A stretch of DNA of 41,264 nt from a virus, in IMG/VR virus record IMGVR_UViG_3300033148_010412, positions 1 to 41,264 of that record, one strand, 5' to 3'. The translations under genes were made by a program, and so were the position numbers. The number at the start of each line of letters is the position of its first letter. The stretch's first letter is position 1. The notes below the pieces were generated by a model that saw nothing but the letters and a program-made list of their open reading frames with translations, made no database searches and was not told where the DNA came from. Below, in pieces: positions 1,713-38,132 of the stretch.

Positions 1713-1812
1713 ACCTGTTGACCTTTCGATGATCGGCACCTATACTTATCCCCGCCCACGCGTGGGCGACGAGGGGAGTGCCGATCTATCGGGATACCTG
1801 GGGTCAACAGGT
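1713..1812. promoter_or_regulatory. Nested inverted repeat over the methylase leader
   Basis: Three nested pairings are visible: ACCTGTTGACC at 1713-1723 with GGTCAACAGGT at 1802-1812 (11 bp), GATCGGCAC at 1731-1739 with GTGCCGATC at 1778-1786 (9 bp), and a central 16-bp perfect palindrome at 1753-1768 (half site CGCCCACG). In the leftward transcript this folds into a rod of about 100 nt ending seven bases before the methylase ATG. It also contains the alternative GTG start. A smaller hairpin GGGCG/CGCCC at 1822-1838 lies just after the upstream gene. A control of methylase expression is plausible but inferred. Confidence 0.55.
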
Positions 1813-20851: not shown

Positions 20852-20897
20852 CAAATCTTTACCCTTGAACCTTTTACCTTTGATCTTGGACCTCTCA
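20852..20897. repeat. Heptamer repeat array (short)
   Basis: Units CCTTGAA, CCTTTTA, CCTTTGA and TCTTGGA fill the gap between portal and protease genes and run into the last codons of the portal gene. Confidence 0.7.
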
Positions 20898-22811
20898 ACC
20901 ATATCTTCCCCGGATCATCCGCTGGACGTCCTCCGGAAACCGCCATAAGGGCCAGATGATGTCCCGGCCCCTGTCGTTGGGCCGATGCGCGGCCTGAACC
21001 ACCGGGTGCGCCCAATATTGTTCCACCGGCATGGGCGTGCCTCCGAATTCCCAGTTGGTCAGGGCCTCGATGGCCCGGCTGTCGTCCGCGGTCCTGGAGT
21101 CCCGGGGACCCCGGGAAAACGCATAGAGCTTGTCATTCGGGTATGCCTGCTTCGCGTTCTCCAGCGCCGCGTCCTGGTATATCTGCTTGAGCTCGTTGCG
21201 CACGTACAACTCCGCCCGCGCCCGCGGGTCCATCGTGTACTCGCCGCTGTCCGGGTCCCGGAACTGGTCGCCGGAAAAAAACGCCTCCAGGTTCTCGGTG
21301 GCCTCCGCGATGGTGGTCTGCCCGCGCACCAGGCCGCTTATTTCGCCCTTCACCCGGCCCTGCACCAGATCCAACAGTCCTCCCTCGAATGCCTTTATCT
21401 GCCTTCCCACGTTATGGAGTATCTTCTCGATGACCTCCTCGCCCAGCTCCGCGGTGAGGCTCTGGATCAGCGCGTCCAGTCCGCCGATTCCGCCGCCGAT
21501 GTCCTGGAATTCTATTGCTCCCTCGCCCCGATTGCGGGGAGAGTGGTCGGGCTTCGCCATGCCGCCCAGCACCGGCTCATCGCCCTCCGGCTCCGGGATC
21601 CCATAGGTGTCGCGCATGTACGACATGGGCACAGGCATTCCCATGTCAACGATTAAAATCTTGTCCCTCTTGGCCAGGGCCTCCAGGTCCTCGGGCGGCT
21701 GGAACTTTATCTGGAACTTTGGATACTTGTCCCGCGGGCCGTGGTTGAAATCCACGAGAGGCTCAACCAGGCCCCGCTGGATGGTCTCCATCGTGCAGGT
21801 GCAGTCATATTCCAGGATGTCCTGCCGAACCTCGTTCTGCACCTGGCCCAGGGCATAGGAGCCGCTCTCGCCCTCCTGCGTGGTCAGCGTCTGGCCCAGA
21901 ACCCGCTTGCTCTTCAGGCTGTCGGCCACGCGACTGAAATCCTCGAACATGTTGATGGACGCGGTGCCCTTGAATTCGTGCACCTCGATCTCGGTGGTCT
22001 TGGAGATCATGGCCGCAAGCTCGGTGGCCATATTCTTAACGGCCGCCTCCAGCGTTTCCCGGTCGCCCCGGGAGGAGGCGGAATCGTACCGGCCCAGCAC
22101 GAACCCCTGCCCGAAGCGCTCCATGAAACTGATCCAGTCCTTGATGCTGTAATTCTGAAACATCCACCACCAGACCAGGCCGCGCATGAGGCCCGAGCGC
22201 ACCACGTAACCGCCCCGGGGCTGGAACCGATGAAACAGGAACTTCTCCCCCGGGATCTCTTCGCCTTTGAACGAATAGGATTCGGTCAACAACCTGGGGA
22301 ATTTCAGCAGGTTCCAGCCATCATCCCGGAACACGAACCGGTGCTGCATGACCTCGTCCAGAGACTCCACATAGAGCCACTTGCCGTCGGTGGCCCACAT
22401 GATCTCCGACATGGCGAACCCGTACGGCCCGGCTTCCTGGAGCGACCGCAGCGCGCCCTTGAAGTCCGGGACGGCTTCGAGGATTTCCCGCACCAGGTCC
22501 GCGTCCTTGTGCCCCTGGCCGTCGTCCGTGCCCGGCACCACCTCCCACGGACAGCCCACCACCGCGGCCTTGCGCGTATCCAGCACGCTGCCCAGGTGCA
22601 GGTCCTTCTCGATCACGTCAGCGTAGAGCCGCATGGCCCGCTCGATATCTCCCAGATCAGCCGAATAATGTATGGAAGCCAGCGTCTCCGGCGTCATGCT
22701 CCCGCCGTACGCCCCAACCAGCGGATCCAGGACGGAGGGCTGCACGATCCGCCCGGCCTCGGGCTTTTCTTTCCCAGCAAAACTGGCCTTTATGCGACTG
22801 AAAAATTTCAT
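20895..22811 (-). CDS. Portal protein (DUF935, Mu gp29-like) with C-terminal MuF-like domain
   Basis: A 638-residue protein. Residues about 25-430 match the DUF935 portal family: VLDPLVGAYGG, LGSVLDTRKAAVVGCPWEVVPG, YGFAMSEIMW and FERFGQGFVLGRYDSAS. The remaining 200 residues contain the pattern of the MuF/SPP1 gp7 head morphogenesis domain (YVRNELKQIYQDAALENAKQAYPN, then RTADDSRAIEALTN, then HPVVQAAHRPNDRGRDI). No separate gpF gene lies beside it, which supports a fusion. The portal forms the DNA entry ring; the second domain is normally in a protein injected or associated with the portal. The fusion reading is by pattern. Confidence 0.8.
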   Translation of the reverse strand: MKFFSRIKASFAGKEKPEAGRIVQPSVLDPLVGAYGGSMTPETLASIHYSADLGDIERAMRLYADVIEKDLHLGSVLDTRKAAVVGCPWEVVPGTDDGQGHKDADLVREILEAVPDFKGALRSLQEAGPYGFAMSEIMWATDGKWLYVESLDEVMQHRFVFRDDGWNLLKFPRLLTESYSFKGEEIPGEKFLFHRFQPRGGYVVRSGLMRGLVWWWMFQNYSIKDWISFMERFGQGFVLGRYDSASSRGDRETLEAAVKNMATELAAMISKTTEIEVHEFKGTASINMFEDFSRVADSLKSKRVLGQTLTTQEGESGSYALGQVQNEVRQDILEYDCTCTMETIQRGLVEPLVDFNHGPRDKYPKFQIKFQPPEDLEALAKRDKILIVDMGMPVPMSYMRDTYGIPEPEGDEPVLGGMAKPDHSPRNRGEGAIEFQDIGGGIGGLDALIQSLTAELGEEVIEKILHNVGRQIKAFEGGLLDLVQGRVKGEISGLVRGQTTIAEATENLEAFFSGDQFRDPDSGEYTMDPRARAELYVRNELKQIYQDAALENAKQAYPNDKLYAFSRGPRDSRTADDSRAIEALTNWEFGGTPMPVEQYWAHPVVQAAHRPNDRGRDIIWPLWRFPEDVQRMIRGRYG

Positions 22812-22917
22812 CGCCCCCTGAACCTTACTCCCTGTCCCTTGTCCCTTGCCCCTTTCACCTTGTCCCTTTCACCTTTCACCTTTCACCTTGCCCCTTTCAC
22901 CTTGTCCCTTTCACCTC
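22812..22917. repeat. Heptamer repeat array (largest regular block)
   Basis: Fifteen or so consecutive units such as CCCTTTC, ACCTTGT, ACCTTTC and ACCTTGC lie between terminase and portal genes. In the transcribed strand they read AAGGTGA/AAAGGGG, thus giving a run of AAGG motifs in front of the portal start. Confidence 0.9.
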
Positions 22918-24565
22918 ACAACCAGGCCCCGCGGCCCATGCCCGCATACCGGCTCCGCCGGATACTCATGTATTCCGGCGCGCCGCCGGTGATCTCCTCG
23001 GCCAGTGAAAAGGCCATCTCCAGCGCGTCCGGCCCGTCATCGTGATCCCCCTGCGGGAAATTGAGCATCTGCTGAATCAGCGTTCTGTGCTTGCGCGAAA
23101 ACCTCAGTATTCCGTTCTTCACGTGCGGCTGCATGCGCTGGATACGCAGCATCTTGTCCGTGAGGGGCTTGTAGCCTTCCACGGGCAGGAACATGCCCAC
23201 TTCCTGCCCCTTGCTGATCATCTCGTCCTTGAAAAACTCCTGGAACTGCGTCTCCTCCACCCGGATACGCAGCGGCCTGTGGTGCTGATATGCAATAAAA
23301 ACGTCCTCGATGATCCTGTGCGGATGACGCTTGCGGATGTCCGCGTCCACCACGTAGCAGAAAAACTTCCCGTCCTCCCTGGCCACACCCAGCACCACGA
23401 TGGCCGAGGGGTCGGACCTGCGGCTCTGCTTGCCCATCGACGGGTCAACGGCCGCCACGTTGACGAGATGCTTCCCCTCCAGCTCGTCGTCCTCGTACCA
23501 CCGGAACCACTCCTCCAGGAACACAGCGGTTTCCGGGTCCAGCGGCTCGTTCTGCATCTCCGCATCGAAGTGCGCCGGGCCGTCGCTTATCCGCATCTTC
23601 ATGAGATCGTAATAGGTGTACCGCTCGGGCCAGAGCACCTCGGTGCCCTCGAGCATTTGTTTTTTGTGCCGCTCGAAAAAAGCGTCCGCGGCCGGCGTTT
23701 CCCCGATTGCCGTTTGTGCTGTGAAAAGATCTTCCCATTTTTCCCACAATGGAGACTGGGACCACCTGAGGACGGCCCTGTACTTTCGGCCCCTCCATGC
23801 CGGATTCTTAAGTAAATTGGCTCCCAGACAGTCGTGATGGATTATGGTGAATGCCGCCAGGGTGACCGTGTCGGGCTGTCCCGCCCGCCGCAGCGCGCGG
23901 AAAAACCACTTGCGGGTCTTTTCCCGCTGTTCCGCGCTGATCACGTTTTCGTCGTTCTCCGGGTCATCCACGATCATCAAGTCCGGACGATGCTGGCCGT
24001 GCCGGGCGCCGCGCAGGCGCTTGCCCGAACCCCATGCCTTGATCCGCACGCCATTTGCGGTAAGAACGTTGCCCACCTGCCACGTGGGACCCTCTCCACA
24101 GACCTCCGGAAAGTCCTGCTGCAGCCGCTGGTTGCTCTCCAGCTCCAGCTTGACTATCTCCAGGAAATCGTTGGCCTGGCTCGTGGTATCCGAGAACAGC
24201 CCGATGAAATTTCTGAATTTCCCGGCCACGCACCAGATAGGCGCTATCAGGCTCAGCCAGGTGGACTTGGCGAAGCCCCGGGGCGCGGCCACCGCCATCT
24301 GGCCGCCCTTGCCGGTCTTGATGGCTTCCTCTATGAGCTGCTGAATGTTGTCGGCAAGGTAATGATGCAGCCCGGAAGACGGGCAGGTGAGATAATGCGG
24401 AAAATAAAACTCCCCGAACTTCTTTAAATCAGCCAGCGCGGCCCTGCGCCGCTTTCTTTTGCCGGCCGGCGTGCCGTCCGCAAAGGGAGACGTGGAGGCC
24501 TCGATGAGTTTCCGCAGGCCCGTCATGTCGTCCTTGAATTGTTTAATGGTCAGTTTTTTTGTCAT
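22916..24565 (-). CDS. Terminase large subunit
   Basis: The motor protein cuts and packages phage DNA into the prohead. This 549-residue protein has Walker A APRGFAKST at 94-102, Walker B LMIVDD at 196-201, and a C-terminal RNase H-like nuclease with acidic residues at VDPSMG (Asp374), RVEET near 437 and DHDDGPDAL near 508-515. This is a complete set. It lies next to a probable small subunit and portal gene, as in Mu-like phages. The stop reaches into the heptamer repeat array, and the start has a good spacing from the upstream gene, with a short palindrome-containing gap. Confidence 0.9.
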   Translation of the reverse strand: MTKKLTIKQFKDDMTGLRKLIEASTSPFADGTPAGKRKRRRAALADLKKFGEFYFPHYLTCPSSGLHHYLADNIQQLIEEAIKTGKGGQMAVAAPRGFAKSTWLSLIAPIWCVAGKFRNFIGLFSDTTSQANDFLEIVKLELESNQRLQQDFPEVCGEGPTWQVGNVLTANGVRIKAWGSGKRLRGARHGQHRPDLMIVDDPENDENVISAEQREKTRKWFFRALRRAGQPDTVTLAAFTIIHHDCLGANLLKNPAWRGRKYRAVLRWSQSPLWEKWEDLFTAQTAIGETPAADAFFERHKKQMLEGTEVLWPERYTYYDLMKMRISDGPAHFDAEMQNEPLDPETAVFLEEWFRWYEDDELEGKHLVNVAAVDPSMGKQSRRSDPSAIVVLGVAREDGKFFCYVVDADIRKRHPHRIIEDVFIAYQHHRPLRIRVEETQFQEFFKDEMISKGQEVGMFLPVEGYKPLTDKMLRIQRMQPHVKNGILRFSRKHRTLIQQMLNFPQGDHDDGPDALEMAFSLAEEITGGAPEYMSIRRSRYAGMGRGAWL

Positions 24566-26063: not shown

Positions 26064-26645
26064 CTACGGGCATGGCGTGTTATGACCAGGATGGCCATGC
26101 TGCGCATAAATGCCGGAGTAAATTCTCAACGCCCTGGCTTCCCCCCATGCCTTCACAACCTTATCCACGTATGCGATCACCTGATCCGCATAAGGCCGTT
26201 TGCCTCTCACGACGCATTCATCATGACGCAAGTATTTCTTAGTAATGTCCCAGACGTCGGATTTATTTCCATGCCGTATCTCAGAGAGCCGCAGCGCCAA
26301 TTGTACGTATACCGGACCGCAGTTGTAGCAGGCCAGCGCGAACTTCCAGCGCTCCGGCTTGTTCCTGAGGGTGGGGAACTTGTCGTACTGCCGCCGCAGA
26401 TAGTAGGCGCCGCATCGCACGTTATGCGCCGGGTTCCAGATGTCCGGCGCATCAATCCTCAGCTTCTGCGCCATCGACACGAAGGTTTCCGGAATCAATT
26501 GCATCAGCCCCGCCGCGCCGCAATGAGATTGCACATCCGCTCTCCAGCCCGATTCCACCTGGATCATCGCGTGGACAAGGCACGGGTCCATATCGAACTC
26601 GTCGGCGGCCTGGGCGATGATAGTTTTATAAAGCTTGTTGTACAT
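26064..26645 (-). CDS. Endolysin: lytic transglycosylase (SLT domain)
   Basis: The enzyme cleaves the glycan strands of peptidoglycan for host lysis. It has all SLT (Slt70-type) marks: catalytic Glu in MIQVESGW (residue 31), GAAGLMQLIP (44-52), NPAHNVRCGAYYLRRQYDKF, and ACYNCGPV. The 193 residues lack a signal peptide, so release needs a holin or pore. ATG 26645 is preferred because GCAGGG lies just before it; a GTG at 26657 is also in frame. It is the first gene of the leftward late operon. The C-terminal 60 residues contain extra Cys and His and are not part of the core. Confidence 0.85.
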   Translation of the reverse strand: MYNKLYKTIIAQAADEFDMDPCLVHAMIQVESGWRADVQSHCGAAGLMQLIPETFVSMAQKLRIDAPDIWNPAHNVRCGAYYLRRQYDKFPTLRNKPERWKFALACYNCGPVYVQLALRLSEIRHGNKSDVWDITKKYLRHDECVVRGKRPYADQVIAYVDKVVKAWGEARALRIYSGIYAQHGHPGHNTPCP

Positions 26646-26845
26646 TTTCCCTGCCACGTTGCCGGGACGGGATTCCCGCCCCGGCGGCCTGTGGCGGCCA
26701 CTAACCCATTTGCACGGGTTTTGTTCGAAGAGATAAGGTCAAGGGTTGATTTATCCGGTGATCCCGTCTGCCACTGTTAATCTCGCTTAACCCCTTTCAT
26801 CTCCCTCGCGAGCAGTAGCAGACGGGACGGGATTAAAATTAAATT

Positions 26846-26868
26846 GGCCCCGGCCCGCTGCCGGGGCC
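26846..26868. promoter_or_regulatory. GC-rich hairpin
   Basis: GGCCCCGG at 26846-26853 pairs perfectly with CCGGGGCC at 26861-26868 around a 7-base loop. It has no T run, so it is not a standard terminator on either strand; it stands just before a strong SD. Confidence 0.6.
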
Positions 26869-26874
26869 TGCAAC

Positions 26875-26916
26875 ATGGAGGTGAAAATGAAACGTTATTG
26901 CTATATTAACCGTTAA
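26875..26916 (+). CDS. Possible leader peptide or truncated gene start
   Basis: ATGGAGGTGAAAATG contains a near-perfect SD in front of a second ATG at 26887. The frame gives MKRYCYINR (or MEVKMKRYCYINR) and stops. A strong translation start with so short a frame suggests either a leader peptide or the remains of a gene lost by deletion. Confidence 0.25.
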   Translation: MEVKMKRYCYINR

Positions 26917-27009
26917 AATCAGGGCTGTGGGCACACCTGTCATCTCCTGTCAACAAAAAATAATTTTTTTTGAAAAAAATGCATTTCTAAAAAAAAAGTG
27001 AAAAAAGAC

Positions 27010-27039
27010 TTGACAAACGGTAATTACCAGTATATACTG
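27010..27039 (+). promoter_or_regulatory. Strong sigma-70 promoter with palindromic operator
   Basis: TTGACA (27010-27015) and TATACT (27033-27038) are separated by exactly 17 bases. Two palindromes lie over it: GGTAATTACC at 27019-27028 and CAGTATATACTG at 27028-27039, which covers the -10. They are natural targets for the ribbon-helix-helix protein encoded by the first gene, implying autorepression. Confidence 0.75.
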
Positions 27040-27066: not shown

Positions 27067-27255
27067 ATGAAAAAATTAGTACAGATCAAAAATATGGACG
27101 CAAAGGTATGGTTGGCTTTTGCGACTGCGGCAAAAAGTTTAAAAAGAGAGCAAGCCGATTATTTGGCTGAAATAATGCTTGCGCAGGAGCCGATCAGAAA
27201 GCAGTATGAATTTCTCACTGAAATAGAGAGGCAAGAGGCTAAAAAGAAAAAATAA
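27067..27255 (+). CDS. Ribbon-helix-helix-like small regulator
   Basis: A 62-residue basic protein. VQIKNMDAKVWLAFATAAKSLKREQADYLAEIM has the layout of the Arc/CopG fold: a polar beta strand (KLVQIKN), helix A (AKVWLAFATAAKSL) and helix B (REQADYLAEIML). Such dimers bind palindromic operators. The gene follows a strong promoter whose -10 lies within a perfect 12-bp palindrome, so it most likely represses its own operon. GGGAG lies five bases before the ATG. The second gene encodes an acidic protein. The fold is assigned by pattern and is likely, not certain. Confidence 0.6.
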   Translation: MKKLVQIKNMDAKVWLAFATAAKSLKREQADYLAEIMLAQEPIRKQYEFLTEIERQEAKKKK

Positions 27256-27315: not shown

Positions 27316-27903
27316 ATGAGATATTATCCAATTAGTAGAGATCAAGCGGCCCGCATCAATTACGATGAAATGGTCCGCCAATGTGGCCACGATGCAGCCG
27401 AAAGTCTTGATTTTACTTACCTCTATTTCGAGATAGATAAAGAAGAAATGGAGGAAATGGCAAAAGCTTCTTGGCCAGCGCTAACAAAGATCGAAGAGCA
27501 TGAATGGCCGAGAGAATGGGGAGAATTCCCTGTTGATAAAAATCTTTTCATCTGTGAGGAAGGCGGATTTGTCGTTGACGATAAAGAAGAAGCTGAGGCT
27601 CGGTGGAAATCTGCCTGGCTTGAAGGTTTCACCAGCGAAAGGGCAGAAAAAATCACGCGGGAAATGCTCAAAAATGCGGGAGAAGACATGGAAAAGACAG
27701 AATCCCGTCAATGGGCACATTTAACTGTCCTTCCCCACACGGGACATGCTGACGAGCATTTTATAGAAGGCTGTCGTCTTGACGACGAAAAATGGGTATG
27801 GCGTTTAAATACACCGATGGGCGACAGTGAATGGCAGATAGGATGTGAAGAAGACATTCTGATTTCAGTCGAAGAAAATTGCCGCAACTGGCATCTCGAA
27901 TAA
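27316..27903 (+). CDS. Very acidic hypothetical protein (195 aa)
   Basis: ATG 27316 is selected because AAAGGAG precedes it by seven bases; a longer frame from 27265 lacks an SD. The protein has about twice as many Asp/Glu as Lys/Arg (roughly 46 to 22) and many Trp residues (SWPAL, EWPREWGEF, KWVWRLN, SEWQIG, NWHLE). There is no signal peptide. It is the second gene of an operon starting with a small DNA-binding protein, and is AT-rich relative to the phage core. Its size and charge resemble phage inhibitors that mimic DNA, including anti-restriction and anti-CRISPR proteins; this is speculation, no family is recognised. Confidence 0.6.
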   Translation: MRYYPISRDQAARINYDEMVRQCGHDAAESLDFTYLYFEIDKEEMEEMAKASWPALTKIEEHEWPREWGEFPVDKNLFICEEGGFVVDDKEEAEARWKSAWLEGFTSERAEKITREMLKNAGEDMEKTESRQWAHLTVLPHTGHADEHFIEGCRLDDEKWVWRLNTPMGDSEWQIGCEEDILISVEENCRNWHLE

Positions 27904-27910
27904 ATAAAAA

Positions 27911-27972
27911 GCCGGGGGTGTCGGGCAGGAGAAAGCCCCCGCGGTGGCGAACCGCGGTCCCCGGCTTTTTTT
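27911..27972 (+). terminator. Rho-independent terminator after the acidic protein gene
   Basis: GCCGGGG (27911-27917) pairs with CCCCGGC (27959-27965), followed by T7. The interior folds further, with CCGCGG on both sides of a 7-base loop and a GGGC/GCCC arm. A preceding A5 allows partial function in the opposite direction. Confidence 0.8.
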
Positions 27973-27977
27973 ATTTT

Positions 27978-28010
27978 AGCACTTGACATTTAAAACTCAA
28001 GTGCTATTCT
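27978..28010 (+). promoter_or_regulatory. Promoter of the candidate RNA with operator-like inverted repeat
   Basis: TTGACA at 27983-27988 and TATTCT at 28005-28010 are 16 bases apart. The perfect 9-bp inverted repeat AGCACTTGA-N10-TCAAGTGCT (27978-27986 and 27997-28005) covers the -35 and reaches the -10, so a dimeric repressor bound here would block polymerase. No gene starts downstream before the terminator at 28160. Confidence 0.7.
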
Positions 28011-28016
28011 CATTAT

Positions 28017-28183
28017 CAGCCCTATCCTGCCCAACCCCTCCGGGCGCCGCCGGTCCCCGGGGGAGAAAAGAGGGTCGCCCGACACGCTGAAATCGTGTCT
28101 GATCGCCACGCATGCCGGCGGCGTTCGGGAGAGGATAGGGCGACCGGCACAAAAAAAAGAGCGGCCTCCTGGCCGCTTTTTTT
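28017..28183 (+). ncRNA. Candidate structured RNA, about 167 nt
   Basis: The predicted start (7-8 bases after the -10) falls at the first strand of a closing stem: GCCCTATCC (28019-28027) with GGATAGGGC (28133-28141). Nested inside are CGCCGCCGG (28045-28053) with CCGGCGGCG (28115-28123), and the hairpin GACACG (28081-28086)/CGTGTC (28094-28099). Alternative pairing of GTCGCCC (28074-28080) with GGGCGAC (28138-28144) could compete with the closing stem, giving a possible switch. The RNA ends with a strong terminator hairpin. No good open frame is contained. It lies between the end of the early operon and the plus-strand island. No known RNA family was recognised; a 6S-like rod shape is superficially similar. 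Confidence 0.65.
28151..28183. terminator. Bidirectional terminator between candidate RNA and early operon
   Basis: A8 (28151-28158), AGCGGCC (28160-28166), TCCT loop, GGCCGCT (28171-28177) and T7 form a symmetrical terminator. It ends the plus-strand RNA and can also stop the leftward early operon, whose last gene ends at 28209. Confidence 0.85.
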
Positions 28184-28208: not shown

Positions 28209-28403
28209 TCATTCCTCCAATCCCTGGAATTCGGCCCGCTCCAGGAGCTCCTTCAATGATTGGGGCGTGGTGCCCACACATCGCTCTGAGATCTTGAGCT
28301 TCAACAGCCGGCCGTCGTCCAGCATGCGGTGCACAGTGCGCTTGCTCACTCCCAGCGCTTTGGCAATCTCCCCGGGCCGTATCATCTTGCGCTCCATGCT
28401 CAT
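28209..28403 (-). CDS. Excisionase/MerR-type helix-turn-helix protein
   Basis: A 64-residue protein containing IRPGEIAKALGVSKRTVHRMLDDGRLLKLKIS, the helix-turn-helix pattern of the excisionase-like HTH_17 group. The first ATG is too close to the AGAGG motif, so translation may begin two codons later at 28397. It is the last gene of the early operon, just upstream of the terminator. In Mu this region encodes activators for middle and late transcription, so a regulatory role for the lysis-head operon is plausible. The protein itself is only DNA-binding in type. Confidence 0.65.
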   Translation of the reverse strand: MSMERKMIRPGEIAKALGVSKRTVHRMLDDGRLLKLKISERCVGTTPQSLKELLERAEFQGLEE

Positions 28404-30847: not shown

Positions 30848-30909
30848 ACCTTGTACCTTGATCCTTGTCCCTTGCACCTTGCACCTTGCACCTTGAACCT
30901 TTATCCTTA
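30848..30909. repeat. Heptamer repeat array
   Basis: Units TACCTTG, ATCCTTG, TCCCTTG, CACCTTG and AACCTTT lie between the B-type ATPase gene and the gene after it. Confidence 0.85.
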
Positions 30910-32088
30910 TATTGCCGCCACCACCTCCGCGCTGACCCTGGCCTCCCCCATCTCCGCGGCCAGGTTCATGCCCCGCGCCGTGTAATTATTCACGGTGAGC
31001 GGATAGATGCGGCTCTCCACCAGCTTGCCGTACCGGTCCTTGATCAACAGCCGGTCGGCCAGGGCATCCAGGCCGTCCTTGCTGAATACTTTCTCAAGAT
31101 CCGCACCCACGCGCTTGAATTTCAGAGCCAGGTAGCCCTTCATGTCCTCGGCCGAGAAGGGCGCCAGCTTCGCCGTAACGCAGCGCCGGATGACCTCCCG
31201 GATGTCATAGGACCGCCGCTCGTCAAGCCGCTGCTCCAGCTCGGGTTGTGCGATGAGAATGATCCCCATGACCGGCGATAATCCGTCCTTGATTTCCAGA
31301 AACCGCTTCAGATATTTCAGCGTGTGGATCATCAGATCATGAGCCTCCTCCAGCACCAGGACGAACCGCCTGCCGGTCTTGTAACGCTCCAGCAGGAGCT
31401 GCCGCACCCGGGCCGCCTGCTTCTCCTGGCTGGAGGGGGAGCGGCCGTCGGCCGAGATGTCGCGGATGATGGCTTCCGCGATGTGGTATGCCGTGAGCCT
31501 CTTCTTGTCAAAAGACTGCGGAAAAATGATTATCACCCGGTCGTCCCTCTGGAGTTGTTCGAATACCAGCTCACGGATGATGGTCTTGCCCGAGCCGACC
31601 TCGCCGATCACCGCCACGAAACCGCCGTTGTGGGCCGCGTCCAGCATGGCCTCCTTGACGTAGCGGTGCTCCTGGCTCAGGTAGACGTCCTTCTTGCTCT
31701 GCACATCGCCGATGAACGGGTTCCGAAATATTCTGAAATGCCTGAGTGTCTCTGAATTAATCATTTCCACCTCCACCGTTTCGATGAATTTCGGGTTGCA
31801 GGCCGCGGGTTTCCGGCGGATCACCGTGTGAAACGATTCCTGCCACATTTGCCCCACGACGGACTCTTCCACCCCGTGATCCCGCAGGTACTTCTCGATC
31901 CTGCACCGATACTCACGCTGGGCCTCCGGGCTCACACCCGGCACGTAGCCTTTCCGCAGGGTATAGGCGAACGTGGTGATGTTGATCCCCAGGTCCCGGC
32001 ACAGGGCCTGCTGCTGTATCCCGTTCTCTTTCAAAATCCGGCGCAGCAGGATCGGCCTGTCCTCCATGCGTTCCGCGATTCTTCCCAT
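30907..32088 (-). CDS. AAA+ ATPase, transposition target protein (MuB-like)
   Basis: A 393-residue protein that selects target DNA and stimulates the transposase. Residues 15-50 are a helix-turn-helix (LKENGIQQQALCRDLGINITTFAYTLRKG), the N-terminal domain found in MuB. The AAA+ core has Walker A GEVGSGKT (162-169) and Walker B LVLEEAHD (244-251). GGGAGGTGAAA immediately before ATG 32088 fixes the start; the much longer frame to 32256 overlaps the transposase and is not used. The gene follows the transposase by two bases, the same A-B order as in Mu. Confidence 0.9.
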   Translation of the reverse strand: MGRIAERMEDRPILLRRILKENGIQQQALCRDLGINITTFAYTLRKGYVPGVSPEAQREYRCRIEKYLRDHGVEESVVGQMWQESFHTVIRRKPAACNPKFIETVEVEMINSETLRHFRIFRNPFIGDVQSKKDVYLSQEHRYVKEAMLDAAHNGGFVAVIGEVGSGKTIIRELVFEQLQRDDRVIIIFPQSFDKKRLTAYHIAEAIIRDISADGRSPSSQEKQAARVRQLLLERYKTGRRFVLVLEEAHDLMIHTLKYLKRFLEIKDGLSPVMGIILIAQPELEQRLDERRSYDIREVIRRCVTAKLAPFSAEDMKGYLALKFKRVGADLEKVFSKDGLDALADRLLIKDRYGKLVESRIYPLTVNNYTARGMNLAAEMGEARVSAEVVAAI

Positions 32089-32090
32089 TT

Positions 32091-33779
32091 TCACCTCCCG
32101 TTTCTTGATGCTTGCTCCTTGATCCTTTCTCCTTTTTCCTGCAAGCGCTCCATGATCGCGGCTATCTCCATTTCCGGCACCGTGTCCCCGTACTCCTCCT
32201 TCAACGTCTGCGCCATCCAGGGCCGCCAGGCGTCTCCCAGTTCCTCCCGTATCCACTTTGCCGCCTTGAGCCGGGGGATGTCCCGCGCCTGGACGTCCGC
32301 TGCCAGAGGGATCTCCGAGGCCCTGCTGCTGCGGTCAATGAACATGATCGGCTCCAGCTCCCTGTGCAGCTCGCCCAGGAACGGTAATCCGGTCTTCTTT
32401 TCGGGCGCATCGCGCCGTGCTTCTGCATCCATTTCTTTGCCCGCCTTCATGGCAGGTGTGTCTTTTTGCGACTTGTATTCCTGGCCCCACACGGCCGCAT
32501 CGGCCCTGAACCCGCCCTGGATCCCGGGGAGGAACTGCACCGCGGAGGCCGAATACTTCCTGCCCTCGTAAGCAATTGTCACGTCCGGATGACGGTACGG
32601 GTTGACGGTCACCTCCACCCTGTCGCCGCGGGCGATGCCCGGTACGTGCCGTAGATCATAGGAAAGTCCGTTGTACCGGATGACCAGGTTCCCCTCCACG
32701 ATACGTTTATCGGGCCTGCTGTGGGCCAGGGACTGGATGACCTCCAGGGGCGGCAGAATCCTGATGTCCTCGGCCTTGATGCTGGACCACAGGGCCGACC
32801 TGGTCATGCCCGTGCGCGTGTGTATCATCGTGGCGTTGATATATGCGCACATGTCCAGGGCCTTGTGGTTCAAATCCTCCAGGCTGGCGGCCGGCGCCAG
32901 GCGGAGCAGGGACTCGAACTTCTGCTCCCATATCCACATCATGGTCTCCACCGCGCCCTTGACCCGGGGATTGCCCGGCAGGTGGGGCCTGTGCTCCACC
33001 TCCAGGCGGTCAAGGATGCGGTTTATTATCGAGTTGGCCGAACCCGCATCCCATATCAACATGCGGGGGACATGGGCGAAGGGGTATTTCTCGCGGATGA
33101 ATTCGGGCTTTTCGCGCCAGGCGCGGGAAAAGAGAAAATCGAAGAGATCGTGCCAGTTCTCGCCGGCGGAATAATAATATCTTACGTAAAACGCACCGCT
33201 GAAATGGTCCACCAGCAGGTACCGTATCAGGTGCCGCTTGATCTTGCGCATCTTTTCCGGCTTGTAGAGCTGCTCCAGGTCCGGGTCCCGGATCTCAAGG
33301 CCCTTGTCCTGCAGGTAGTACTGGACGCAGTGCGTGGCGTCCACCTGGTGCACGTGGTTTGGGTGGAGGCTGCGCATGGCAACGTGCGGGGTCGGCTCTA
33401 ACTGGTGCCGCTTGCTGACCTTCTGCTCCCGCATCAGCCGCCGCACCGTCCCCTCCGAGACCGCCCCCGCGTCGATGACCCCTGTATGGGAAGCCGCCAG
33501 CATGGCCGTGAACGTATCCATCGCCATGCGATTCTTCTTTGATCTCGAGGTTCGGATGATCGCGGCTATCTCGTTGACCTGGTCATCGGTGAGACTATGA
33601 TCGTCTCCGCCGTTGCCGTTGCACGCCCGGCCGGAATCAAAGCCCATCTGCTTGAGCCTGCGCAACAGGGTGTTCCTGGACTTGCCGGTGATCCGGCCGT
33701 ATTGCTCCAGGACGTCCCAGCGCTCCCCCCAGGCCGCGGTGGTAAAATCACGAAAGAGTTGTGACCAGAGATCTGGCAT
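32091..33779 (-). CDS. DDE transposase (MuA-like)
   Basis: This enzyme joins the phage ends to new sites and drives replicative transposition. The 562-residue protein carries an N-terminal helix-turn-helix segment (ITGKSRNTLLRRLKQMG, 30-46), a second helical DNA-binding part (to about 125), and an RNase H-like catalytic core with Asp147 (HQVDATH), Asp244 (LIWDAGSAN) and Glu278 (VKGAVE). A Mu-type C-terminal beta-barrel follows (about 350-420, EGNLVIRYNGLSYDLRHVPG). It is about 100 residues shorter than MuA, mainly at the N-terminus, where MuA binds the enhancer. The AGGAG lies nine bases before the ATG. Confidence 0.93.
   Translation of the reverse strand: MPDLWSQLFRDFTTAAWGERWDVLEQYGRITGKSRNTLLRRLKQMGFDSGRACNGNGGDDHSLTDDQVNEIAAIIRTSRSKKNRMAMDTFTAMLAASHTGVIDAGAVSEGTVRRLMREQKVSKRHQLEPTPHVAMRSLHPNHVHQVDATHCVQYYLQDKGLEIRDPDLEQLYKPEKMRKIKRHLIRYLLVDHFSGAFYVRYYYSAGENWHDLFDFLFSRAWREKPEFIREKYPFAHVPRMLIWDAGSANSIINRILDRLEVEHRPHLPGNPRVKGAVETMMWIWEQKFESLLRLAPAASLEDLNHKALDMCAYINATMIHTRTGMTRSALWSSIKAEDIRILPPLEVIQSLAHSRPDKRIVEGNLVIRYNGLSYDLRHVPGIARGDRVEVTVNPYRHPDVTIAYEGRKYSASAVQFLPGIQGGFRADAAVWGQEYKSQKDTPAMKAGKEMDAEARRDAPEKKTGLPFLGELHRELEPIMFIDRSSRASEIPLAADVQARDIPRLKAAKWIREELGDAWRPWMAQTLKEEYGDTVPEMEIAAIMERLQEKGERIKEQASRNGR
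32101..32141. repeat. Heptamer-like repeat inside the transposase 3' end
   Basis: CTTGATG, CTTGCTC, CTTGATC, CTTTCTC and CTTTTTC units are within the last 15 codons of the transposase gene, so its C-terminus (EKGERIKEQAS) derives partly from the repeat. Confidence 0.6.
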
Positions 33780-34977: not shown

Positions 34978-35003
34978 AAAATGTCCGCCGCGGCGGACAT
35001 TTT
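34978..35003 (-). terminator. 26-bp perfect palindrome followed by T run
   Basis: A perfect palindrome with half site ATGTCCGCCG and A/T extensions lies just after the IclR-type HTH gene. In the leftward strand it is followed by T6, so it can act as a terminator or attenuator. One additional half site CGGCGGACA lies at 34925-34933 in front of the next gene, so a regulatory protein might use the same sequence. Confidence 0.6.
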
Positions 35004-36438: not shown

Positions 36439-37206
36439 ATGTCAAGAGAAAAATTACAGATATCCGAAAATAATTTATCCACTCTTGGTTCTCGATTAAG
36501 AGCATTTAGAAAAGCAAAAGGCCTAACTTTGATCGAAGTGGCCGAAAAACTTGACATTGCTCACAGCACTCTTTCTGCTCTGGAGAATGATGTAAGCTTG
36601 CCCTCTGCAGAGACTTTAATGTCATTATACCGAAATTATGGGATCTCTTATAATTGGTTGCTGGAAGGTGATGGTGAGCCATTAACAATAAGTGAAGCAA
36701 AAAGTGTTGAATATGGGCTCCCCACCCCGCCTTCTCCTGAACTTCGGCTCATAACCCGTGACGAAGCAGAAAAGGAAAGCTTTCATCGAATCGAGCGCGT
36801 GGAAAACTACGTACCTATCAAATTACTGGCCGACCGGGTGGCGGGAGGTGATCCCCGTGAGATCAACGAAAATGACATCGAGAGCTATACGGTGATCTAC
36901 GAGTCATGGGTGAAACCGGGCGGCGTCTACAGCAGCATCCGCATCAAGGGTGACTCGATGGCCCCGGTGCTGAGGGAGGGCGATATCGTAACCATAAACC
37001 ACACCCGCACCGACCCCGCGGAGCTTCGGGGAAAGATCGTCGCCGTCCGGATCCCCGACGAGGGGATCACCATCAAGTACCTCAACGAAATGCCCGATGT
37101 CTGGGTCCTGGAACCTGAGAACCGATTAGCCCAGACCATCTACGCGGACAAAAAGAAAAGCAAAATCATCGGCGTGGTGGAATGGGCGTGGAGGAGGTTT
37201 GAGTGA
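36439..37206 (+). CDS. LexA/CI-type repressor (XRE HTH with S24 peptidase)
   Basis: This 255-residue protein keeps the prophage silent. Residues 14-75 are an XRE helix-turn-helix (LRAFRKAKGLTLIEVAEKLDIAHSTLSALENDVSLPSAETL). The C-terminal domain has Ser173 in KGDSMAPVL and Lys213 in ITIKYL, the catalytic pair, and a cleavage site Ala135-Gly136 (DRVAGGDP). RecA-assisted cleavage on DNA damage is therefore expected. That is the lambda type of control, unlike the Mu repressor. The first part of the gene is AT-rich and the second GC-rich, suggesting domain exchange. Its 3' end is the site of a cargo insertion and duplication. Confidence 0.9.
   Translation: MSREKLQISENNLSTLGSRLRAFRKAKGLTLIEVAEKLDIAHSTLSALENDVSLPSAETLMSLYRNYGISYNWLLEGDGEPLTISEAKSVEYGLPTPPSPELRLITRDEAEKESFHRIERVENYVPIKLLADRVAGGDPREINENDIESYTVIYESWVKPGGVYSSIRIKGDSMAPVLREGDIVTINHTRTDPAELRGKIVAVRIPDEGITIKYLNEMPDVWVLEPENRLAQTIYADKKKSKIIGVVEWAWRRFE
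37135..37206 (+). repeat. 72-bp direct repeat, copy 1 (repressor 3' end)
   Basis: The last 72 bases of the repressor gene, stop included, recur without mismatch at 38197-38268, with the match extending about 4 bases further upstream with one mismatch. The copies flank the TIR-like gene and are 1062 bp apart. Confidence 0.95.
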
Positions 37207-37244
37207 ATTAAATTAAAGATTCTATTTTATTGGAGAAAATTATA

Positions 37245-38132
37245 ATGGAAAAAACAAGGACATCCCAATCATCGACTTTAATAGAAAAAGACCGAGGGCG
37301 AGCCTCGCAATTGTTAAGAAGTCAAAAAGAAAAGGCGCAGAAGCTCTTAAAACAAATGCATTTAAGCGATCAAGATTTTGAGCAATGGGAATTAACAACA
37401 AGGGGCTTTATTGAAAAAGCATTTGGAGACCAACATTACAATATAAATAAATTCGATTCTGCCTGTCCTAAAGAATATGCACTTTGGGTTGGATTTCCTG
37501 GAATATCACCTGAAGAAACTCCGGAGCAAACAAGTGCTCGCAATAAAAATTTTTTAAAAGAAAAGCTCATTATCCTAGATAGCTGTATTGAACAAATTTA
37601 TATGTCATCTACTGAAAGAGAAAACCTCATTGTATCGCAATCAAGCCATATTTCGCTAAAAAAAGTTTTTATTGTTCACGGTAGTGATACCGGTAAGAAA
37701 GCTGAGGTGGCAAGATTAATTTCTAAATTAGATATTGAACCTATTATTCTTCATGAGCAGCCAAACGAAGGGAAAACTTTAATTGAAAAGTTTGAAAAAC
37801 ACGCATCAGAGGTTGGCTTTGCATTGGTGAATTTAACTGCAGATGATATTGGCTGCTCAAGTGAAGCTTTTAACAATTCTAAAGATAAAAGAGCAGAACC
37901 AAAATGGGAACGAAGAGCACGCCAAAATGTAGTCTTCGAATTAGGCTTCTTCTTTGGTAGTATCGGAAGAGATCGAGTTTGCGTATTATATTCACCTGAG
38001 GTAGAACTCCCATCTGATATTCATGGCTTAACTTATATAAGATTTGATACAGAAGGGGCTTGGGAATTACACGTTGCGAAAGCTTTGAAAGCTGCTGGAT
38101 TTGAAGTAGATCTTAATAAATTATCTGATTGA
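37245..38132 (+). CDS. TIR-like nucleotide-binding effector (Cap12/Pycsar TIR type)
   Basis: A 295-residue protein. Its C-terminal 155 residues form the TIR-like domain of the PF10137 type: KKVFIVHGSDTGKKAEVARLI (139-159), IILHEQPNEGKTLIEKFE, FALVNLTADDIG, and RARQNVVFELGFFFG with the putative catalytic Glu232, then VCVLYSPEVELPSDIHGLTYI. Members of this family degrade NAD+ in anti-phage systems. The N-terminal 130 residues are helical without known sensor. ATG 37245 follows GGAG; frame to 37230 starts with TTG. AT-rich. It follows the repressor closely and can be expressed with it in the lysogen. No cyclase gene is adjacent. Confidence 0.8.
   Translation: MEKTRTSQSSTLIEKDRGRASQLLRSQKEKAQKLLKQMHLSDQDFEQWELTTRGFIEKAFGDQHYNINKFDSACPKEYALWVGFPGISPEETPEQTSARNKNFLKEKLIILDSCIEQIYMSSTERENLIVSQSSHISLKKVFIVHGSDTGKKAEVARLISKLDIEPIILHEQPNEGKTLIEKFEKHASEVGFALVNLTADDIGCSSEAFNNSKDKRAEPKWERRARQNVVFELGFFFGSIGRDRVCVLYSPEVELPSDIHGLTYIRFDTEGAWELHVAKALKAAGFEVDLNKLSD

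Follow-up and report, generated by a model that had tools for sequence, protein, structure and literature searches.

Does a short stretch at the boundary between the early and late genes of a Mu-like phage produce a small RNA of its own? The stretch (the element) lies in IMG/VR virus record IMGVR_UViG_3300033148_010412, of which 41,264 nucleotides were analysed as one window, and an initial annotation had proposed positions 27978-28183 as a new structured RNA with its own repressible promoter. Most genes of this phage are on the minus strand, including the transposase (32091-33779), the transposition ATPase (30907-32256), the terminase (22916-24565), the portal (20895-22811) and the tail genes, with a probable early promoter predicted at 36445 on the same strand. 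The last early gene, which is convergent with the element, encodes a 64-aa HTH_17/excisionase-like protein (28209-28403, minus strand), and the next minus-strand gene encodes a transglycosylase (26064-26657). Between these two, the plus strand carries a promoter at 27010, two low-G+C open reading frames (ORFs; 62 and 195 aa), a Y-shaped terminator and the element. Elsewhere in the phage, a protein adjoining the repressor (37230-38132) matches the PADLOC candidate defence family PDC-S35 (E 1e-75) and has a TIR-type effector region; we regard its gene as a candidate phage-borne defence gene. The early region also holds AAAATGTCCGCCGCGGCGGACATTTT (34978-35003), a perfect 26-bp palindrome and the longest gapless palindrome found.

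The element begins with a sigma-70-type promoter, TTGACA-16-TATTCT (27983-28010, plus strand; -35 at 27983-27988, -10 at 28005-28010), which was annotated correctly and also has an extended -10, with TG one base ahead of TATTCT (TGC). Ten sites across the 41 kb, this one included, reach 10/12 matches or better. Overlapping it, as in an operator-controlled promoter, is an inverted repeat, TAGCACTTGA (27977-27986)-N10-TCAAGTGCTA (27997-28006), which is perfect, as had been reported, but has arms of 10+10 rather than 9+9. That the repeat falls on the promoter is beyond chance: among 247 promoter-like sites of the same quality in 60 shuffled windows, none had a comparable repeat (9+9 or longer) beneath it. 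From its position the palindrome may be an operator; a symmetric two-way promoter would be just as good an account, since on the minus strand the palindrome produces a mirror site, TTGAGT-16-TAAAAT, which likewise has a TG (27973-28000, 9/12 matches). Since the palindrome also creates this mirror promoter, the term 'repressible' is unproven: the overlap is as described, but repression was read from the palindrome itself. No second paired copy of the site occurs elsewhere in the phage window, and an operator shared with the phage repressor was rejected for that reason. The palindrome pattern matched four places in IMG/VR. Each of them is a hairpin, and none is followed by a relative of the element; three have runs of A and T on both flanks, as in terminators or hairpins of that sort, and two of the four are near-identical.

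Judged by the position of the -10, the predicted untranslated RNA would be ~165 nt long (28017-28183, plus strand). In the computed fold, a closing stem of 10 bp (28019-28028/28132-28141; pair probability 0.97-0.98) begins 1-3 bases after the expected transcription start, followed inwards by a 16-bp helix that includes G-U pairs (28039-28054/28114-28129) and a 6-bp hairpin (28081-28086/28094-28099). The initial annotation had the hairpin right and also recognised the closing stem, at the expected start, and the inner helix, but gave each as 9 bp. Its 7-bp pairing in competition with the closing stem is weaker than proposed: the alternative (28073-28080/28138-28145) is 8 bp long and carries no weight in the computed ensemble because the closing stem is so probably paired, and a switch is thus unsupported energetically. 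With the terminator included, the fold has a z score of -4.7 (0/200 shuffles as good); without it the score is -2.5 to -3.2. Given its composition, the fold stands out only moderately, and in a coarse whole-window folding scan other segments reach z scores of -4 to -8, better for their own composition. The plus strand folds better than the minus strand, both fold strongly, and the element as a whole is one large imperfect DNA palindrome with ~70% G+C. As had been noted, it has no plausible reading frame; of its two frames, one opens with ATG and has 8 codons, the other opens with GTG and continues through the terminator, and both lack a Shine-Dalgarno site.

The predicted transcript runs into an A8-hairpin-T7 two-way intrinsic terminator (28149-28183, both strands; 28154-28183 in the computed fold) that also ends the minus-strand early operon. 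Its ownership became apparent from an IMG/VR terminase search, which returned one close relative, the closest found (G001/L002; terminase 74% identical), and one distant one. L002 retains the early HTH gene (product 67% identical), the transglycosylase gene and, in the same place between them, the two-way terminator (L002 6595-6632, both strands), whose hairpin has changed yet still pairs. A promoter-like site, the accessory ORFs and the element are all missing from that place in L002. A8-hairpin-T7 is accordingly explained as the end of the early operon, its A run being the T run of the minus-strand terminator. Because the terminator is kept in a relative that has neither the promoter nor the RNA, it should not be read as a sign of an RNA gene in its own right, and a plus-strand unit, if it exists, would borrow it from the early operon. 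The annotated terminator is therefore real, but what it had been taken to contribute to an RNA unit is explained by the early operon.

Comparison with L002 also delimits an insertion. Matches to L002 end at 26898 in the window and resume from 28147, positions that are ~55 bp apart in L002 (6688 and 6632), so that the window has ~1.25 kb (26.9-28.15 kb) that L002 lacks. The insertion contains an accessory ('moron') operon and the element on the same strand; the initial annotation had correctly located the element at the early/late boundary, but had not connected it with this operon just upstream. The operon promoter, TTGACA-17-TATACT (27010-27038, plus strand), is the best promoter match of the window and contains two perfect palindromes, GGTAATTACC (27019-27028) and CAGTATATACTG (27028-27039), as would be expected of an autoregulated operon. 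The first ORF (27067-27255, plus strand) encodes a basic 62-aa protein with an all-helical monomer model, which we suspect to be a small autoregulating DNA-binding protein; it has no family, sequence or fold match, and a fold search with the structure model gave nothing significant. The second (27316-27903, plus strand) encodes a 195-aa protein without known relative, for which the structure model was unusable (pLDDT 34). Neither protein had a match in phage records, plasmid records or IMG/VR. The operon ends in a Y-shaped terminator (27906-27976, plus strand) with a 13-bp stem, two inner hairpins and a T-rich tail. The accessory genes have 35-49% G+C compared with ~70% for the element, a contrast that leaves room for separate arrivals. 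Both phages also keep a plus-strand hairpin followed by GGAGGT(G/A)AAAATGA (26846-26930; L002 6741-6688), which lies opposite all neighbouring genes and is possibly a small ORF with a structured leader; just upstream of it is a 15-bp imperfect inverted repeat (26762-26827, 93% complementary).

Searches for relatives of the element were uniformly negative. Rfam, at gathering and permissive thresholds, gave only sub-threshold matches, mostly on the terminator, in agreement with the annotation that no known RNA class is recognisable. A blastn search of phage records returned no match, and IMG/VR yielded none to the HTH protein, either accessory protein or a 20-mer of the element. A search with the terminase alignment added 79 distant loci from IMG/VR, none with the element, which was absent from 87 phage or prophage stretches overall and occurs once in the window. 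Neither a single-sequence covariance model of the element nor the 195-aa protein had a match in 398 genomes of one phylum, where an empty result without a positive control shows little. An integron attC site was considered and rejected, as GCCCAAC at 28029 has no paired partner core. With no homologue found, there is no conservation and no covariation to test, and the element lacks the homologues with covarying helices that mark a conserved structured RNA class. Conservation in related phages, on which the initial annotation had staked its proposal, is negative in the single close relative, L002. A single sequence without relatives shows rarity or fast turnover rather than a new class, and the proposal of a new structured RNA, as a class, is not supported.

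A better-supported structured RNA of this phage is the leader hairpin (1713-1812, minus strand) of a D12-type DNA adenine methylase gene (822-1706, ATG at 1706), which the whole-window folding scan picked out with a z score of -4.1 to -8.4. Shine-Dalgarno-like bases 7 nt ahead of the AUG are sequestered in its 11-bp outer stem, ACCUGUUGACC/GGUCAACAGGU, and the next helix has GATC in both arms. The close relative G001 keeps the whole structure (L105 18777-18874): base changes affect both partners in two pairs and one partner in four, and three cells are broken. Pairing holds in 95.5% of cells, compared with 27-46% for shifted pairings, and covariation across these two sequences is not significant against shuffled letters (110/500). 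The arrangement resembles the control of mom translation through Com in phage Mu (PMC6483171), and the methylase leader deserves separate study.

Our preferred explanation, in which our confidence is evenly divided, takes the element to be a phage small-RNA gene that is transcribed independently and is carried with the moron insertion at the early/late boundary. As a description of the sequence, the annotated self-contained unit at a Mu-like early/late boundary holds: a promoter, present as a sequence motif; a non-coding structured stretch; and a terminator, common to the convergent early operon. The small-RNA reading draws on the quality of the promoter, on a palindrome beyond chance and on an expected start 1-3 bases before the closing stem. 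It is further suggested by the fold with the terminator, the plus-strand preference, the lack of a frame and the well-placed terminator, by the joint lack of this stretch and the accessory operon in the closest relative, and by the same arrangement documented in Escherichia coli O157 prophages (PMC4104026). Against it we counted the lack of a homologue, the moderate fold without the terminator, the terminator's other owner and the G+C contrast. Under the small-RNA reading, the palindromic promoter at 27983 would start the untranslated RNA, which would fold into one long interrupted hairpin and end where the convergent early operon already had its two-way terminator. The RNA would most likely be made whenever a palindrome-binding factor is absent, presuming an operator role, and its expression would most likely be independent of the phage early and late programmes. 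It would then most likely act in trans, its target being a host or phage transcript or an RNA-binding protein. That a discrete functional RNA is made from the element at all is a proposition we hold at about the midpoint between belief and disbelief.

The main rival is that the element is inert junction DNA. On this explanation the element makes no RNA with a function: its palindrome arose as an accident of the insertion or serves as a symmetric promoter for both directions, the GC-rich imperfect palindrome between it and the early terminator is an insulator or inert, and whatever is transcribed is a by-product. The minus-strand mirror promoter, the lack of conservation, a fold only moderately unusual given its composition and a terminator that belongs to the early operon all fit it, but a promoter and palindrome of such quality were unseen in the 60 shuffled windows, and the stems start within three bases of the expected start. 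On balance we consider it a possible, somewhat doubtful explanation. Another idea, that a REP/MITE-like palindromic mobile or repeat element landed beside a promoter and that its arms act at the DNA level, would suit one large imperfect palindrome folding strongly on both strands, and the intergenic region of the relative has a repeat-like hairpin, ATTCCGGCTTTCGCCGGAAT. The element is, however, single-copy in the phage, no flanking target-site duplication was recognised, and no copy occurs in the 398 genomes of one phylum that were searched, a set without the true host; we find this origin very unlikely.

The remaining rival turns on the neighbouring Y-shaped terminator. In an antisense switch between two RNAs, on the model of phage P1 C4, the accessory transcript would pair through its Y-shaped 3' end (27906-27976) with the 5' arm of the element (28025-28043), one transcript controlling the folding or stability of the other. 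Positions 27912-27930 are complementary to 28025-28043 at 16/19 bases, a local complementarity score reached by 17/1000 shuffled pairs, and the Y shape has a weak c4-2 score of 19.8 bits. Yet the gathering score of c4-2 is 41 and the C4 model has no match even at E 10, and membership of the Y element in either family was rejected on these grounds. Moreover, the hybrid energy is not unusual (66/300 shuffles as good), cofolding leaves both RNAs separately folded, and equal complementarity scores occur elsewhere in the window. The Y structure shares with the P1/P7 C4 and c4-2 RNAs (Rfam RF01695, RF02944) its three stems and its partial complementarity to the adjoining element; unlike C4, it involves no antirepressor gene or masked ribosome site, and the element itself does not resemble C4. 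We judge such a switch improbable, and still less credible its fullest form, in which the moron terminator RNA would control a non-coding RNA from a palindromic two-way promoter, a paired-RNA switch undescribed in Mu-like phages.

If the RNA is made, the moron site of this Mu-like phage would contain a small-RNA gene, whose palindromic promoter, ~165-nt transcribed region and terminator would form a compact unit in which to study accessory phage RNAs acting on the host. If it is not made, the locus is a caution, since the terminator that completes the apparent unit belongs to the opposing early operon. In position, the element resembles the early/late (middle) control region of phage Mu, lying between the early genes and the first lysis-type gene, but it differs in being on the strand opposite the early and late genes. 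The initial annotation had placed it where Mu controls late transcription; the neighbourhood is right, but a late-control role is not borne out, given the opposite strand and the fact that no Mor/C-type activator or late promoter was identified in the window.

The closer comparison is with E. coli O157 prophages, in which a small-RNA gene lies between moron genes and a phage gene, in convergent arrangement (PMC4104026). A phage small-RNA gene at a moron site is thus an already known kind, documented for lambdoid prophages. The element shares with AgvB and AsxR its site, flanked by moron genes and a conserved phage gene and tolerant of insertions, here within an insertion absent from L002; like them it would have its own transcription and an intrinsic terminator (PMC4104026), both predicted from sequence in the present case. 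AgvB and AsxR are Hfq-bound RNAs of 51-60 nt that occur as convergent pairs in lambdoid prophages and have a demonstrated anti-sRNA function (PMC4104026), whereas the element would be ~165 nt long, much more structured and carried by a Mu-like phage.
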